NCBI GenBank assembly: GCA_008080745.1
Contig: SHMX01000003.1
Location: 282,971 to 346,970 of the forward strand
Direction: 5' to 3'
From: Candidatus Thorarchaeota archaeon
GTDB taxonomy: Archaea > Asgardarchaeota > Thorarchaeia > Thorarchaeales > Thorarchaeaceae
DNA length: 64,000 bases
In this document: one piece after another, positions 3,624-35,121 of the stretch
Position numbering within the stretch: the stretch's first letter is position 1
Layout: each line of letters opens with the position of its first letter
Notes under the pieces: generated by a model
What the model was told of the DNA's origin: nothing
Seen by the model: only the letters and a program-made list of their open reading frames with translations
Database searches by the model: none
Made by a program: the position numbers and the translations under genes

Positions 3624-5366
3624 ATGGCATTTGCAGAAGCAGTTACAACCGAGCGAGCCGAATACCTAATATACACGGTATTTCCTTTAGCGATTTCATT
3701 CTGGTTCATTTCTTCAATTGTGCAGAACCCATTCGAATTCATAGCCTATGTCAGTGTATCCTCAAGTCTCCTAACTATATTCCTGTTCGAGCTCCGCTTA
3801 GATGACTCGCTCGTGAAATGGTTCTATAACAGATTAACAGACACTCATAAGGAAGATTTTGGAAGATCGTTTGTCAGTTGGAATGTCTTTCTGAAAATCT
3901 GGCAAAACCCAGTTATAGAAGCTCCACAAATGATGTCGGATGGAGGGAAAACAATCAATAGAGTAATTGCTGAGAGTACGCAAAGAGTGGTAGAGAGTTA
4001 TGCTATCAGAAAACGACTCTGGTCGATTAGAGGGTCAATCTATCTGTTTCTCTCAATTCCTTTTCTCATATGGGTGGGTGTTCGATTTATCAAAGATACA
4101 AATATTGGATCTACAATCTCATTTCTATTCATACCTACCATAATTGATACCGCTGGTTTGTTGATTCCAACCCTCTTGATTAGTACTGGTTTCTGGCTGA
4201 TTCAGATTCTTTTCAATATGCATAGATACCGTTCCTTCCGAGAGGAGCTAAAAAATCTTGTAATTTTCAGATATGCGCAAAAACTCTTGGCAAATGATGC
4301 TCTTGAAAATCCTGAATGTTATGTGGACAATCAAGACCTTGAAAGAATCAACCTTCAACAAGAATTAATTTTTCTTGATAGGGTAATCTCACGCGATGAT
4401 TGGGCTGTGTTCATGGATAGATGGAGACCTGTTAGACAGAATGTTGAAAGACGAGGTAGAGTACGATTTCGAGAGAACATGATCGATGAGCTCTTTGCTA
4501 ATTGGCTAGCCCATTGTGTTGTCAGTCAAGATGGAAGGAGAAACAATAACCAGATACTGGAATCAGCCAGGGTTTTGGCAATGAATATCCATTACATTGG
4601 AGAGTTCTTGGAAAAGACCAATTCCATAAAACTGGGCCATCACAGTCGCGCAGTTGCAGAGTTCACTATTGACCTCTATTATGATATTACAAACTTCGAT
4701 CCCAAAAACAAAGAAACGAAAAAAGGGGTTCTAAAGCGAATTACTTCATTTATCAAGTATGATTACAAAGACTACGAATTTGCACCCATGACCATACGAA
4801 TGCTCTTGAAAATGATGAATCCGGTATATCTGGCATCCAGAGCAACATCCAAACTGTTGAATGATACACCACGAGGAAATGAAGACCTTACGATGTCTTT
4901 TGGAAGATTTGTTTCTCAAAAAATGATACAATATTTCATCGGACGAATACCGGAAACAAAATTGGAAGAGTTACAAGAGAACATCTCTAAGACTCATACA
5001 ATTCGATGTAATGATTTTACAAACCTGACTGTTACCCTCGTCTCTCTAGCACAACAGGAAGGTGCAAAAACCGGTCTCTGGAAGAATTTGGACGGTTCAG
5101 AACAAATTGATACTTTAGAAACACTTCTCGATTGGCTGACCAATCATGAAAAAGAACAAGGTGTCATTATTGAAAGTTTTCTGAGAGAAGCTGGGGTTAG
5201 AGCAAGAAAGGCATTTCTGAGGGACCCTGATTGGTGGCCCGTCATTAGGAATACACAGCAGGAATTCATTGGTCGTATTCTAAGTGAGGATATTCAATAT
5301 AGTTCGAAGGTTAGAAGAGAGTTCTTAGACCTCCCATTCATAAAAGAAATCATGAAAGAAGAATAG
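3624..5366 (+). CDS. Uncharacterised membrane protein with large cytoplasmic region
   Basis: This 580-residue protein matches no family I recognise. Hydrophobic segments cluster in the first 200 residues: roughly residues 12-55 (two helices), then 135-155 and 165-200. They are followed by about 380 residues of charged, helix-rich sequence without an obvious catalytic motif. The most likely topology is an N-terminal bundle of about four membrane helices with a large soluble domain, probably cytoplasmic. There is no signal peptide. No good SD precedes ATG 3624, so the transcript may be leaderless. The next gene downstream is convergent, with a hairpin at 5398-5422 between them. Confidence 0.7.
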   Translation: MAFAEAVTTERAEYLIYTVFPLAISFWFISSIVQNPFEFIAYVSVSSSLLTIFLFELRLDDSLVKWFYNRLTDTHKEDFGRSFVSWNVFLKIWQNPVIEAPQMMSDGGKTINRVIAESTQRVVESYAIRKRLWSIRGSIYLFLSIPFLIWVGVRFIKDTNIGSTISFLFIPTIIDTAGLLIPTLLISTGFWLIQILFNMHRYRSFREELKNLVIFRYAQKLLANDALENPECYVDNQDLERINLQQELIFLDRVISRDDWAVFMDRWRPVRQNVERRGRVRFRENMIDELFANWLAHCVVSQDGRRNNNQILESARVLAMNIHYIGEFLEKTNSIKLGHHSRAVAEFTIDLYYDITNFDPKNKETKKGVLKRITSFIKYDYKDYEFAPMTIRMLLKMMNPVYLASRATSKLLNDTPRGNEDLTMSFGRFVSQKMIQYFIGRIPETKLEELQENISKTHTIRCNDFTNLTVTLVSLAQQEGAKTGLWKNLDGSEQIDTLETLLDWLTNHEKEQGVIIESFLREAGVRARKAFLRDPDWWPVIRNTQQEFIGRILSEDIQYSSKVRREFLDLPFIKEIMKEE

Positions 5367-5899: not shown

Positions 5900-8800
5900 T
5901 TACTCTATTTCCATATCAGAAGTCAAATCAAGCGAATTCAATTCGGACTGACCAACCTGTTGAAGCAGTCCAAGTTCGTAGGCTTCCATAATGAGAAGAT
6001 AAGTATCAGCAACACGGATTCCACAGCTCGCCATGCTTCTAGCAAGTTCTACTAGTTTGAAAGATTCAGAGTCTAACTTGTTGACACCCTCAAGGATGCA
6101 ATTGAACTTCTCAGAATATTCAATTTCAGATCTAAAGCGGTAATCAGCAAGCAGAAAGCCATCCATCACATTATCAAAAATCTGGTCGAGGGTATCAATG
6201 GTTTCATCGTCATGGACTTGAGAGGTTTCGACCGACACCGAGTCATCGAGTAGATCACCGACTCTACGTGCGTATTCAATCATTTTCTTTTCTTGTTCTT
6301 TTGAAGCAGGGTTGATTGTTATGAATGCGCACATCAACTCCTGAGTGGGCACAATACGGAGAATATCTGAAATTGGGATTACTTGGAATAGTGTATCTCT
6401 TTCGTTCTCTTCAAATTCGGATTGGAAGTGAGTTATTGCAGTGATGAAAGCACCAATCATGCCTTCTTCAAAACCACCTTTGATTGCTCGGGAATAGATA
6501 GGCAAACCACTTACTTTGTGTAAGACAACAAGGCCAATGAGATTGTTAGCATCATCGAAACGATTCTTTATGTTCATCGCACGAACGAATTTTTCGTGTT
6601 CTTTTTGTTTCTTATATCTGTAACCAACAACGGACAGAACAACGGCCGCAACAATTCCGATTGCAGCGCTTCCGTAGAGGGTAATAGTACGCATTATCTC
6701 CGCTGCAACATCGGGAACGGTAGTAATCGTGGTGGAAAACGCACTAGATAGCTGAGACAGTTCTTTATCAACTGTGATAGAGAGAACATAACCGGATTCA
6801 CCAGGCCAGGGCGGGGTAATTGTTGTAGAGTAAACTCCCGATTCACTTTCATCTAAGATGCCAGTTACCGGGGATATTCCCTCGGCGGATAGTCTATACT
6901 CAACATAAGCTCCTGTTGCGGGTGCACCTGTGTCACTCTCAATAAGCTCTATCTGGATATTCAAAGGCCGTCCTTGTTGCCAGACGATTGGTTCGATGGA
7001 GATTCCCAGAGGTATTTCTTCAACCTGATAATTGAAAGTACCTTGTTGAGATTCGAAACCAATCCTGCTGAAAACAAACTGAACCCGATAAGTTCCAATC
7101 TCCAGGGGAGAAACTGTGATATTATAAACACCATTACCTATCGAAATCCAATCAACCCATTCAAATCCAGTGCCAGAAGCAGAAATATCTGCATTCTCAA
7201 TCCCGTCAAGAGATGACTCTTCTAAGAAAGAGAATTGAAAAGTGTGATTTCGTGTGACAGTTAATGGAGTATTCGGACTAAATATTTGGAGCTCAGAAGC
7301 AATAGGACGAATCTCAATAATGATATCAATATTTGCGGATTGATAATTGTCCTTTGAGGCTGTTATTATTACAGACCAAATACCCGGTTCATCTGAATCG
7401 AAACTAATGATATAGCCTTCACCATTCTTTATGATATTCCAAGAGAGGCCTTCTAGATCAAGCCCAGAAATAGTGATTGTTCCAGATGTGATGTTCTCTG
7501 ACAAGTCGGTCCTTTCGTAGTATAGTGACAAATTATACTCTTCACCATATACGGTACTAATAGTTGACACTCCTAACGGATTGACTATTTTTGTCGGTAC
7601 ATCAACTATTGTGATGGTTAGAGATGTACTTGCGTCTAAATGATTAGGGACAGTAGATACAAACACTAATTGATAGGAACCAGTAGTGTTGATCGCCATT
7701 ATAATTGAATAATTTCCATCTCCAGATTCACTAAATTCGTAGATTGGAACATTATCTGGGAGATTGATGCAGGATATCGTTGCACCTTCAATACTGCCAC
7801 CTGTTGAATTCACTAAGGTGAAACTAACCTCCATTTCTTGGTTAATGACTTGGATGGAAGTTGAAATATCCACACTTAGGATAGCAGACTCGTTTGTGAA
7901 AGATAGAGTAAAAGATACAATCTGTGTGTTATGATTGGTCTTGTTAGCTTGAATTACAATAGAGTAAGTAGCAGAACTTGTTGCTGATAACGAGAAGGAA
8001 TAGACTCCATCTCCATGAGGAATAGAACTACCGTAAACTAGACCTGTTGAGGGTGTTACCGTAATAATCTGAACAGTAGCATCATCAAGACCATGGCCAG
8101 TAAAATTAACATATTCAACGAATACCTCATAGGTTTGACCATAGGATATCGCTGCTGCAGAGCCATTCAGGATGGTCATATCCGTTTCTATTGTATTGAC
8201 GAAAAGGAATAGAGTATCCTCCGCAAATTCATAGTAGCTCTTTGTTGCTTTGAAAGAAATAGAGTAACTGCCAGAGAGTTGACCGGTTATATTTACGGAA
8301 TAGTTACCATTCCCCAGATGGGTTATCGGGCTTAGTTCAAGACCACCAGAATCCCCAGTATAAGAAATATCAATGGTTGCACCATCTATGTCGTTTCCAA
8401 AGGAGTCTTCAAAGTGGAGTACGGCAGTATGGTTTGAGAATAGACCAATCTGAGCTGTGTCACTATCTAGTTGTAGTTGATTGTTAGCATATACAGCGCG
8501 AATGATGAAACTACAAGTAGCATTATCAAAATAGTCGACCGATGCATTAACGATAACAGTGTTATTCCCAGGAGAAATAAGAGATGTGTCAAAGTCCGCT
8601 TCCCACGAGTTTCTAACATCATTTGGAGAAAAGATAATCTCTGTATTAGACCAGTTAGCAACTATCAATGCAGAGGTCATGATGTACTCTCCATTCTCAG
8701 CATCGATAAAACGGACAAAATTCGTTATTGTTTCACCAGCTTCGGTTTCGATATAGCTATTAACTTCAATCAATATGGATTGATGATGAATTTCGAATGT

Positions 8801-10579
8801 AGTTGAGGAAAATGCAATTTCAGTTCCATTGGTCCAAAAAGCCTCCAATTTCCACATGCCAGCTGTGGTATTCAGTGACCCATATGTCACTGAGGAGCTG
8901 TTAGTAATTCCGAGTACCATATCAGTTACATTTTCAGAAAACCAAACTGTTCCATTAGGCATGATGAAAGATATTTTTACTGGAAAACCCGGCTCTGGAA
9001 TTTGAGATTGTGTTCTTATTTCAACCTGCGCTCTTGAAATATTGGTACTCCGAAAAATAGATGAATTTTTCCATGAAAAAGTATTAAGAATTTGTGAATT
9101 TAGCGAGTATGCAAAGTTTGGTGATTGTGCATTGATGACCCACCATCCAAGGCGGTTCAATAAATCAGTGCTAATTTCAACGTTTCCAGGGGATATTATA
9201 CATTCATTAGTAACATCATCTAAAAAGGGATCTAGTATCGTTAGATTTTCCCAGTCAATTGGATGTGGGATAAGAATTGTTAGATTATTGTAACCTTCGA
9301 TAGAGCCAATGTAAGTATAAGTTGATAAATCAGGGCTAGTTCCTGTAGATACAGAGTATATTACTCCTTCTTTAGTTATATCAGTAGTCCAAGTTGAATT
9401 CCTAAAACGATGTGATAACAATCGGGTTTCATAGAGAAAGGCAACAGAAATGTTCGCAGATACTGAAACCGAAACAGGTGAGATGTCCCAATAAGATGAA
9501 TTAGCTATATATGCACTGCCAACACCTACCGTTCCAATTATAGATGTAGTTGTTTGATCAGCAGTAAATTGAAGATTTACTTCTGATGGACTTGGTGGTA
9601 TCAAACTTACTAATTCTACATTATCGAGATTTATGGAGATGAATTGTGTATTGAATGCACCATCTTGTATACCATCGCCATTATAATCATCTTCAGGGAA
9701 TAGTTCCATATCTTGAGTTATTTTTAGTCCAATTGCAAAACTAGCGGTTAAACCAACTGAGATGTTAACATTGAAATCGTTTACATCAAACCAAGTATCT
9801 TGAGATTCCAGTGTGAGAAGACTCTTTGACCATATCTCTGTATTATCTAGATAAACAGAGATTGAGCAATTTCCTGTCAGAGGATCTCCACCGGGTTTAA
9901 TCAAGGGACCTCGTAGATACAGATAGCTGAAGCTTAGGAGGAAGTTGGAGGTTGACGGAATATTTGTGAATGTTTGGTTCCAGAAAACCTGGGTACCTTG
10001 ATAATGAGAATAGGAAGGATTATTGGGATGAGAGTTGAACGTGCCAATATTTTCAGCACTCACATAATTTGGAGAATCATCAGAATAACTTGCAATAGGC
10101 GTTTGTTCTTCGGTAGTTAGGACTGCACTTGTAGCGTTCCAACCATATGGTCGGTAAGTTACTGTCCCATTTGGATTTTCATTAGAACCAGGAATACCTT
10201 CATTAAAAGTACCATTTATGACATAAATTCTTTCAAGATTCCATATGTCAATCTCAGCAGTGCTGCCTAACCATCCATGCGTTATATCAAGAGGTAAATC
10301 ATACGAGGTGCCGACAGAGGTATCGGTTCTAGCTTCAATTACGCCACTACTCTTGTAACCTCGAGTTTCAATCTCCAGCGGATTAATTACACCTTCAACC
10401 GATTTTGAACTTTCTATTTTTTCATTATATGGATTATAATCAGCGTCATTGGTACCTGGGTTAATGCTATTTCCAGAATGAGTGGGTAATACATTTGAGG
10501 GTGTAGAAGATAATCCTAATAATAGCACTAGCAGAAGTATGGACAATTTTCTCCCATGCTTGTTTTTTCTCATCCTCAT
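5900..10579 (-). CDS. Giant surface receptor-like protein: Ig-like ectodomain, one TM, longin-like cytoplasmic tail
   Basis: About 1559 residues. Seen in order: a positively charged N-terminus with a hydrophobic stretch (LSILLLVLLLGLSS) acting as a signal peptide or anchor; a region to about residue 330 that looks like a jelly-roll beta domain with an acidic DDYNGDGIQDG calcium-type loop; about eight beta-sandwich repeats of 85-100 residues, rich in Ser/Thr and N-glycosylation sequons, in the style of archaeal Ig-like surface proteins; one membrane helix near residues 1295-1318 (AAIGIVAAVVLSVVGY), then RYKKQK; and a cytoplasmic tail of about 240 residues. The tail starts LIGLVVLHKVSGLPIYSRAI, then helix, two strands and helix, a longin/roadblock-like pattern. 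I chose ATG 10579 (GGGGATT upstream); an in-frame start at 10639 only adds residues before the signal. The ectodomain presumably binds something outside and the tail couples to cytosolic partners. The longin call rests on pattern, not on a search. Confidence 0.85.
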   Translation of the reverse strand: MRMRKNKHGRKLSILLLVLLLGLSSTPSNVLPTHSGNSINPGTNDADYNPYNEKIESSKSVEGVINPLEIETRGYKSSGVIEARTDTSVGTSYDLPLDITHGWLGSTAEIDIWNLERIYVINGTFNEGIPGSNENPNGTVTYRPYGWNATSAVLTTEEQTPIASYSDDSPNYVSAENIGTFNSHPNNPSYSHYQGTQVFWNQTFTNIPSTSNFLLSFSYLYLRGPLIKPGGDPLTGNCSISVYLDNTEIWSKSLLTLESQDTWFDVNDFNVNISVGLTASFAIGLKITQDMELFPEDDYNGDGIQDGAFNTQFISINLDNVELVSLIPPSPSEVNLQFTADQTTTSIIGTVGVGSAYIANSSYWDISPVSVSVSANISVAFLYETRLLSHRFRNSTWTTDITKEGVIYSVSTGTSPDLSTYTYIGSIEGYNNLTILIPHPIDWENLTILDPFLDDVTNECIISPGNVEISTDLLNRLGWWVINAQSPNFAYSLNSQILNTFSWKNSSIFRSTNISRAQVEIRTQSQIPEPGFPVKISFIMPNGTVWFSENVTDMVLGITNSSSVTYGSLNTTAGMWKLEAFWTNGTEIAFSSTTFEIHHQSILIEVNSYIETEAGETITNFVRFIDAENGEYIMTSALIVANWSNTEIIFSPNDVRNSWEADFDTSLISPGNNTVIVNASVDYFDNATCSFIIRAVYANNQLQLDSDTAQIGLFSNHTAVLHFEDSFGNDIDGATIDISYTGDSGGLELSPITHLGNGNYSVNITGQLSGSYSISFKATKSYYEFAEDTLFLFVNTIETDMTILNGSAAAISYGQTYEVFVEYVNFTGHGLDDATVQIITVTPSTGLVYGSSIPHGDGVYSFSLSATSSATYSIVIQANKTNHNTQIVSFTLSFTNESAILSVDISTSIQVINQEMEVSFTLVNSTGGSIEGATISCINLPDNVPIYEFSESGDGNYSIIMAINTTGSYQLVFVSTVPNHLDASTSLTITIVDVPTKIVNPLGVSTISTVYGEEYNLSLYYERTDLSENITSGTITISGLDLEGLSWNIIKNGEGYIISFDSDEPGIWSVIITASKDNYQSANIDIIIEIRPIASELQIFSPNTPLTVTRNHTFQFSFLEESSLDGIENADISASGTGFEWVDWISIGNGVYNITVSPLEIGTYRVQFVFSRIGFESQQGTFNYQVEEIPLGISIEPIVWQQGRPLNIQIELIESDTGAPATGAYVEYRLSAEGISPVTGILDESESGVYSTTITPPWPGESGYVLSITVDKELSQLSSAFSTTITTVPDVAAEIMRTITLYGSAAIGIVAAVVLSVVGYRYKKQKEHEKFVRAMNIKNRFDDANNLIGLVVLHKVSGLPIYSRAIKGGFEEGMIGAFITAITHFQSEFEENERDTLFQVIPISDILRIVPTQELMCAFITINPASKEQEKKMIEYARRVGDLLDDSVSVETSQVHDDETIDTLDQIFDNVMDGFLLADYRFRSEIEYSEKFNCILEGVNKLDSESFKLVELARSMASCGIRVADTYLLIMEAYELGLLQQVGQSELNSLDLTSDMEIE

Positions 10580-10696
10580 AATCCCCAAGAAGATTTCAAT
10601 TGGAAATTCACTGGTGGTGTAAAAGCGTGATATTATCAATTGAATTATCCATTAGATAAATTAACCGCTAACGTATTCCTTCGAAAAATAGTAGGT

Positions 10697-33936: not shown

Positions 33937-35121
33937 ATGAAGAAAGGTAAAGCTATTTGCATTGCAATCGCACTAGCTCTGGTAACAATGACGTTCATAG
34001 TTCAGCCAGTGTCCGCAAGTTCGACAAGGTTGGAATCGCTAAGGGCATACATTGATCCAAGATATGACCCTGATACTGGAGCCTATGGTTTTGAAGAAGG
34101 TGGAGCCTCATGGGCTTCTGCAACATATTCTGCCCTCACCTTATTTGAGGCTCAGAATCTACTCGATGCGCGGCCACCAATTATTGATATGTTCGATACC
34201 AAAAACTTCACTGCTAGGATTCAGTGGGACACTGGAGATCCAGAAGAAGAGGATCGTTACGGTGGATTTTCTCGATATCAAGCAGGGCCCGTGGATATGA
34301 GATCTACCTATGTAGGTATTGAGCTTTGGAGAATGATATCCGAGCATCAACAGGGTATTCCCAACATAGAGAACGTTGATTTCAATGAAACTGCTGTGAT
34401 GGTTTTTCTAAACAAGACTCAAAATGATGATGGCGGATTTGGTTCAGTAGTAGGTGCTGATTCAGATATGTTGTCTACTTACCAAGGACTATACATTATG
34501 AGCTATATAGATAGTAATTTCGAAGAGTCTATGGATGTTTGGTTGCAAAATGAAACGATGACATACAATTGGATTATGGAGTGTTTTAAGGACCAAGCAT
34601 TCCTCCTTCATCCAGATGCAAGATCAGCAGGAGTTACTCCAACTGCAACCGCATTAATGGCACTTGATATCCTTGATAGATTGACAAGTTTTGATGCACA
34701 AGACGTAGAAAATTGGTTAATTAACAGACAAATTACTGAAGAGGATCAGGGATTTGTTGGAGGCTTCGAGGAAGGAGTGAATACGAATGATACCAACATC
34801 ATAAGCACATACTATGCATTAGAAGCATTCACTCTGTTTGGAAGTATATCGAGCGTGAATACATCAATTGCTGAAGACTTTATTCTGAGTTGTCAGGCGG
34901 CTGATGGAAGCTGGGGACTCAATCCTGGTGTAGAGGAAGGAAGCTTTCCTTACATTGCCTATGCCATTAGTAGTTTGGATATGATTGACGCAATGGACGG
35001 ACTCAATGAAATCGATCCTAATAGCGAAAATTATCCATTAATAGACTGGAGAATCGCTCTCGTGATTGGTGTTATTGTTGCAGCTGTTATCATTGGCATT
35101 CTCTCAGTGAAAATGGACTAG
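33937..35121 (+). CDS. Secreted, membrane-anchored alpha/alpha-toroid (prenyltransferase/squalene-cyclase-like) protein
   Basis: A 394-residue extracytoplasmic protein. It starts with a signal peptide (KKGKAICIAIALALVTMTFIV, ending near VSASS) and ends with one membrane helix (IALVIGVIVAAVIIGILSV) and a short charged tail. Between these lie repeats like those of the terpenoid cyclase/protein prenyltransferase toroid: TQNDDGGFGSV, GFVGGFEEG and CQAADGSWGLNP, each followed by a helix reading like TYYALEAF. No catalytic DxDD or zinc triad is visible, so it is probably a binding protein, not an enzyme. A related protein lies at the right window edge. A structured leader precedes it. Confidence 0.82.
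   Translation: MKKGKAICIAIALALVTMTFIVQPVSASSTRLESLRAYIDPRYDPDTGAYGFEEGGASWASATYSALTLFEAQNLLDARPPIIDMFDTKNFTARIQWDTGDPEEEDRYGGFSRYQAGPVDMRSTYVGIELWRMISEHQQGIPNIENVDFNETAVMVFLNKTQNDDGGFGSVVGADSDMLSTYQGLYIMSYIDSNFEESMDVWLQNETMTYNWIMECFKDQAFLLHPDARSAGVTPTATALMALDILDRLTSFDAQDVENWLINRQITEEDQGFVGGFEEGVNTNDTNIISTYYALEAFTLFGSISSVNTSIAEDFILSCQAADGSWGLNPGVEEGSFPYIAYAISSLDMIDAMDGLNEIDPNSENYPLIDWRIALVIGVIVAAVIIGILSVKMD

Follow-up and report, generated by a model that had tools for sequence, protein, structure and literature searches.

Longin domains are found in eukaryotic SNARE and coat proteins – Sec22b, Vamp7, AP2 mu/sigma and zeta-COP among them – which lack an ectodomain and work as cytosolic adaptors or as tail-anchored SNAREs; the SNARE longins act without GTPases. 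Dimers of longin and roadblock domains, the latter including MglB and belonging to the same superfamily, are platforms for small GTPases in eukaryotes and bacteria (PMC10933270, PMC4917890). Longin homologues have been reported from Loki and Odin (PMC10933270, 2024), and the published Asgard longins are described as soluble or fused to GTPases, none being reported as a surface receptor's tail (PMC10933270, PMC4917890; open-access literature); a review noted that Asgard archaea have longins unconnected with SNAREs or membranes (PMC4917890). Extracellular arrays of Ig-like domains are represented by the Nitrosopumilus S-layer protein (8c8l) and bacterial FdeC (4e9l), neither of which has a longin in a cytosolic tail. 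In NPRL2 and NPRL3 of GATOR1, which have no transmembrane segment, a longin is followed by winged helices (PMC3521125).

Here, we analyze a gene within a 64,000-nucleotide stretch (the window) of a Candidatus Thorarchaeota archaeon genome (GCA_008080745.1, contig SHMX01000003.1, positions 282,971 to 346,970). The gene is on the minus strand, as are, unless stated otherwise, all features whose window coordinates follow, and spans 5900..10579, with an ATG at 10579 and a stop codon at 5900-5902; the frame is still open upstream of the ATG as far as a TTG at 10639. Its 1559-residue product is organized as a signal peptide, a beta-sandwich head, an Ig-like stalk, one membrane helix and a 241-residue cytosolic tail. 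The reading frame is a coding sequence under selection, because dN/dS against a relative of the same genus is 0.11 overall and 0.05 in the longin domain of the tail. An initial annotation had proposed an N-terminal signal, about eight beta-sandwich repeats, one membrane helix and a cytosolic region of about 240 residues, and this outline is borne out, the repeat count being roughly right as six homologous units, one marginal unit and a non-repetitive head.

The protein is predicted to be a type I, single-span cell-surface protein. Hydropathy finds exactly two strong hydrophobic segments, at residues ~12-33, the core of a signal peptide region with a basic start (residues 1-34, 10478..10579), and at 1299-1318, the membrane helix (residues ~1298-1318, 6626..6688). 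A basic juxtamembrane helix follows (residues 1319-1345, 6545..6625; helix 2-26 of the tail model), and among 72 relatives the net charge is +5.2 just inside the membrane helix and -0.4 just outside. The ectodomain holds all 36 N-glycosylation sequons, against 20.5 expected from shuffled sequences (p=0.0002), and the tail has none; across the family sequon density is 2.45 per 100 residues in the ectodomain versus 0.12 in the tail. The membrane helix precedes the longin by 20-36 residues in 69 of the 72 relatives inspected; the exceptions are one protein without a membrane helix (L124), one that is cut short (L125) and one frame at L060 that begins inside the tail. The signal peptide, ectodomain, single membrane span and cytosolic tail of a type I surface receptor are thus all present, each by prediction.

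The ectodomain begins with a non-repetitive head (residues 61-601, 8777..10399), common to all full-length relatives and either fast-evolving or exchanged. The AlphaFold2 (AF2) model of residues 58-795 is all beta (pLDDT 91), and Foldseek matches the head to generic Ig-like proteins only, with low TM-scores; no ligand domain of known specificity was recognized in it against the PDB. An acidic DxDxDG-like loop, DYNGDGIQDG (residues 298-307, 9659..9688), is retained by most relatives in the alignment, though not by all, and possibly binds calcium. The stalk consists of an Ig-like unit seen in the AF2 model (residues 602-698, 8486..8776), marginally related to the repeats (hhalign 60%), and of six homologous repeats of ~98 residues (residues 699-1292, 6704..8485), bounded at 699-797, 798-897, 898-994, 995-1092, 1093-1188 and 1189-1292 and matching one another at 71-99% by hhalign. 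Pfam Big_1 matches at 717-778 with E=1.2e-4 and 22.5 bits, below its curated cut-off of 34.9. Repeat copy number differs among relatives (occupancy 0.64-0.8), whereas the longin and the repeat next to the membrane are invariably present.

The initial annotation described a tail opening with a beta hairpin, followed by a helix, strands and a helix, and likened this pattern to longin and roadblock folds. The AF2 model of the tail, built with 50 relatives (pLDDT 88.4, pTM 0.86), has a hairpin at 1347-1365, a helix at 1372-1396 and further strands and helices; in tail numbering the elements are E28-35, E41-46, H53-77, E88-92, E96-102, H108-125 and H139-152, with a short bridge at ~83-84 in place of b3. 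This is the longin order b1-b2-a1-b3-b4-b5-a2-a3 (topology terms from PMC10933270) and places the domain at residues 1346-1472 (6164..6544). The top 50 PDB matches of the model by Foldseek all read as members of the longin/roadblock superfamily or complexes built from it, including zeta/delta-COP, AP2 mu/sigma, Vamp7, Sec22b, Gtr1/2, MglB and Asgard roadblock, and neither PAS/GAF nor profilin is among them. The domain shares its fold and element order with the longins of eukaryotic SNAREs and coats. Target TM-scores (TMt) are 0.67 (/0.61) for the Sec22b longin, 0.63 for AP2 mu, 0.56 for Asgard roadblock and 0.55 for Vamp7. E-values of 0.003-0.015 for solved longins denote a fold-level match only, and fold alone parts longin from roadblock poorly.

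HMM-HMM comparison puts the tail on the longin side. Against a reference set of Asgard longins drawn from borderline Pfam hits, which limits the comparison, the Asgard tail profile scores 99.0% over 123 columns with hhalign, and it scores 97.1% against longins fused to GTPases, versus 72% against roadblock and at most 1% for control segments of the ectodomain; a profile restricted to the window family gives a weaker 84.5% against longin. A helix does precede b1, as in roadblock, but it continues the membrane helix; PF03259 (Robl_LC7) has no match, and there are two C-terminal helices as in longins. Pfam and NCBIfam searches of the tail and its relatives gave no match, Pfam having no family for the tail, and PF13774 (longin) finds none above its curated cut-off. 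PF13774 passes that cut-off in just one of 59 Asgard genomes and is nearly blind there, so the missing match reflects on the model more than on the domain. Profile searches of PDB sequences with the longin returned chance-level matches only. There is neither a SNARE coiled coil nor a C-terminal transmembrane segment, the membrane helix lying before the longin and only a winged-helix-like domain after it. The tail is thus neither of an unrelated fold nor without a membrane helix in front of it, and the proposed likeness holds, with longin favoured. No part of the protein is more conserved than the longin (dN 0.09), and among the large parts the head evolves fastest (dN 0.51).

The tail probably carries a second, winged-helix-like domain at its C-terminus (residues ~1490-1543, 5951..6112), although the assignment is weak. 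The model has three helices and strands in an order plausible for a-b-a-a-b(-b), and the best profile match among PDB sequences is the MCM C-terminal winged helix (weak, E=0.018). Within the tail it varies most across Asgard, with 8-37% identity to the window protein beyond its own genus. That certain Lokiarchaeal forms have a second winged helix was considered, and HMM-HMM comparison gives this no support; some Lokiarchaeal-type receptors (L126, L127 and L128) have an extension of roughly 200 residues, probably helical, after the winged-helix-like domain. The order of longin and winged helix is that of NPRL2 and NPRL3, but the likeness is likely parallel and not one of whole-protein homology; homology of the tail to NPRL2 was rejected, PF06218 (Pfam NPR2) being not above chance in ten Asgard genomes.

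Receptors of this form are widespread in Asgard archaea. The tail profile matches in 143 of 196 sampled Asgard genomes, covering 46 of 58 genera, and most of the matching frames are 900-2000 residues long; a search of 39 genomes gave matches in 26. The order of signal, membrane helix, longin and C-terminal domain can be made out in most of 19 distant ORFs. Scanning GTDB with a single conserved pattern, which is too narrow to exclude distant relatives outside Asgard, returned 45 loci, 43 of them labelled Thorarchaeota and two labelled Lokiarchaeota isolate RBin_111, the latter evidently of the window's genus. The window's genome has four such receptors, including two further close paralogues and a fourth of 1852 residues (L193) with signal, membrane helix, longin and C-terminal domain; three to four divergent copies per genome are found. 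Membrane helix and tail are thus conserved together across Asgard, and the design, which the initial annotation had thought unusual, is phylum-wide. The genes are often tandem pairs on the same strand a few kb apart (L037, L040, L041, L044, L045 and L060), and one paralogous gene (L191:12458-18375) is in two overlapping frames of 1688 and 357 residues, either an assembly frameshift or a decaying copy.

Judged from the trees, heads and tails have different histories, with well-supported clades in conflict. The head of L054 groups with L044b and its tail with L048/L053; for L061 the partners are L040 (head) and L044b/L060 (tail), and for L063 they are L075 (head) and seven others (tail). In approximately unbiased (AU) tests, head data reject the tail clades and tail data reject the head clades (p ~0.0003 or less, p<0.001 each way), with log-likelihood differences of 56-428; because the tested groups were picked after seeing the trees the p-values are optimistic, but differences this large are hard to explain that way. 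Heads would therefore have been exchanged or have diversified quickly on a conserved tail. Between the window protein and its relative at L035 identity is 46% in the head and rises abruptly near residue 601, to 84% in 602-698, with 86% in the longin; head replacement and fast divergence are indistinguishable for this pair, because synonymous sites are close to saturation. MAG chimeras are an unlikely source of conflict for the window protein, since the L035 gene sits between the same flanking genes, and assembly chimeras in repeat arrays are a possible source for L054, L061 and L063. Such separate histories point to selection acting on recognition, which partner choice or the avoidance of viruses would be expected to bring about.

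Thorarchaeia clearly have many longins by profile matching, and these were missed earlier because the Pfam model so rarely passes its cut-off in Asgard. The all-Asgard profile matches 31 longins in the window's genome, four of them in giant frames, and there are 34 matches to Ras-family GTPases. Two of the 31 longins lie within 2 kb of a GTPase versus about 1.5 expected, showing no enrichment in this genome, and no GTPase is fused to or adjoins the receptors. An operon link to GTPases was considered and rejected, as the neighbours – folE2, queD and DNA ligase – are unrelated, though L035, the sister genome, keeps them as well. Operons that join GTPases to their regulators are likewise not the general rule in Asgard (PMC10933270). 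Asgard longins fused to GTPases also occur here as GKT-bearing frames. Longin tails are attached to other membrane proteins of the window's genome too: a 554-residue membrane protein of about 12 helices, a transporter, ends in a longin at 426-554 (L195, G000:C6:163500-168000). A 240-residue soluble longin protein (L190:17097-17816) is encoded ~4.6 kb beyond a paralogous receptor gene. Within the window, the plus-strand frame adjoining the receptor (3624-5366) encodes 580 residues with several hydrophobic segments and no Pfam match and is conserved at L035, and another (33937-35121) encodes a protein that looks secreted, carries alpha-alpha toroid repeats of the prenyltransferase type (Pfam E=4e-21) and has a hydrophobic segment at its C-terminus.

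We favour, with moderate confidence, an adhesion or recognition receptor whose heads can be replaced and whose longin tail offers a platform on which small GTPases probably dock. The variable head, held off the membrane by the stalk, would recognize something outside – a partner cell, a surface polymer or a virus – and the membrane helix and basic juxtamembrane helix would present the longin and winged-helix-like domain to the cytosol. Clustering or pulling of receptors could bring the longins together as a dimerizing platform, most likely recruiting or regulating Rab/Rag/Arf-like small GTPases of Asgard at the contact, where the membrane would be marked or remodelled. Ligand recognition, clustering, GTPase binding and output are the steps that we infer. 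The initial annotation had proposed a signalling receptor joining a sandwich array to a GTPase-linked tail; the architecture stands, as does the longin by topology and HMM-HMM comparison, and GTPase signalling keeps the standing of a proposal. More tentative is the stronger form of the idea, namely that recognition receptors with exchangeable heads, found phylum-wide, put small GTPases under the direct control of the longin and turn cell-cell contact into local membrane remodelling, a pre-eukaryotic arrangement with no counterpart in known receptors.

Rather unlikely, though the best placed of the alternatives, is a structural coat or adhesin in which head and stalk form a surface layer or stick to something, and the longin only anchors or positions the protein, for example by dimerization, with no signalling. 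The best PDB matches of the ectodomain in structure searches are S-layer and Ig-array proteins, the ectodomain is large and glycosylation-prone, and cryo-tomograms of Lokiarchaea show complex surface proteins and no ordered S-layer (PMC9834061). However, a simple anchor would hardly be expected to take the form of a large two-domain tail with a longin more conserved than every part of the ectodomain, and the several divergent copies per genome also argue against it. A sorting receptor, in which the longin guides the protein and ectodomain-bound cargo to protrusions or vesicles as in SNAREs and coat adaptors, seems improbable: its closest solved structures are indeed coat and SNARE longins, and the 12-helix transporter has a longin tail as a trafficking tag might, but SNAREs and coats are absent from Asgard genomes as described in PMC4917890. 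The head-first topology is also the reverse of that of SNAREs. We give little credence to a membrane-tethered transcription regulator, resembling ToxR/CadC-type one-component systems, with DNA bound by the winged helix and transmission or dimerization left to the longin; the element order and MCM match are in its favour, but the assignment is weak, the domain is the tail's least conserved part, and winged helices often bind proteins. That the longin likeness is a shared superfold only (roadblock, profilin or PAS/GAF) with a different role is very doubtful, for although single sequences match no Pfam longin model and folds of this size are easily matched, the HMM-HMM alignment to Asgard longins is colinear over the whole domain and the element order, with its two C-terminal helices, is longin-specific.

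The favoured receptor is assembled from parts of known kinds, a single-span surface receptor and a longin protein, in a combination apparently undescribed in the open-access literature, where no earlier description was found. If GTPase control is true, it would be a categorically new signalling class. Asgard archaea, the closest known relatives of complex cells, have many eukaryote-like GTPases and longins, and the receptor bears on the question of what these are used for. A widespread longin-tailed surface receptor would be a physical link from that machinery to the outside, and a concrete protein testable in cultured Lokiarchaea; the longin being a module that eukaryotes use for small GTPases and membrane traffic, contact with the outside may be wired directly to it.
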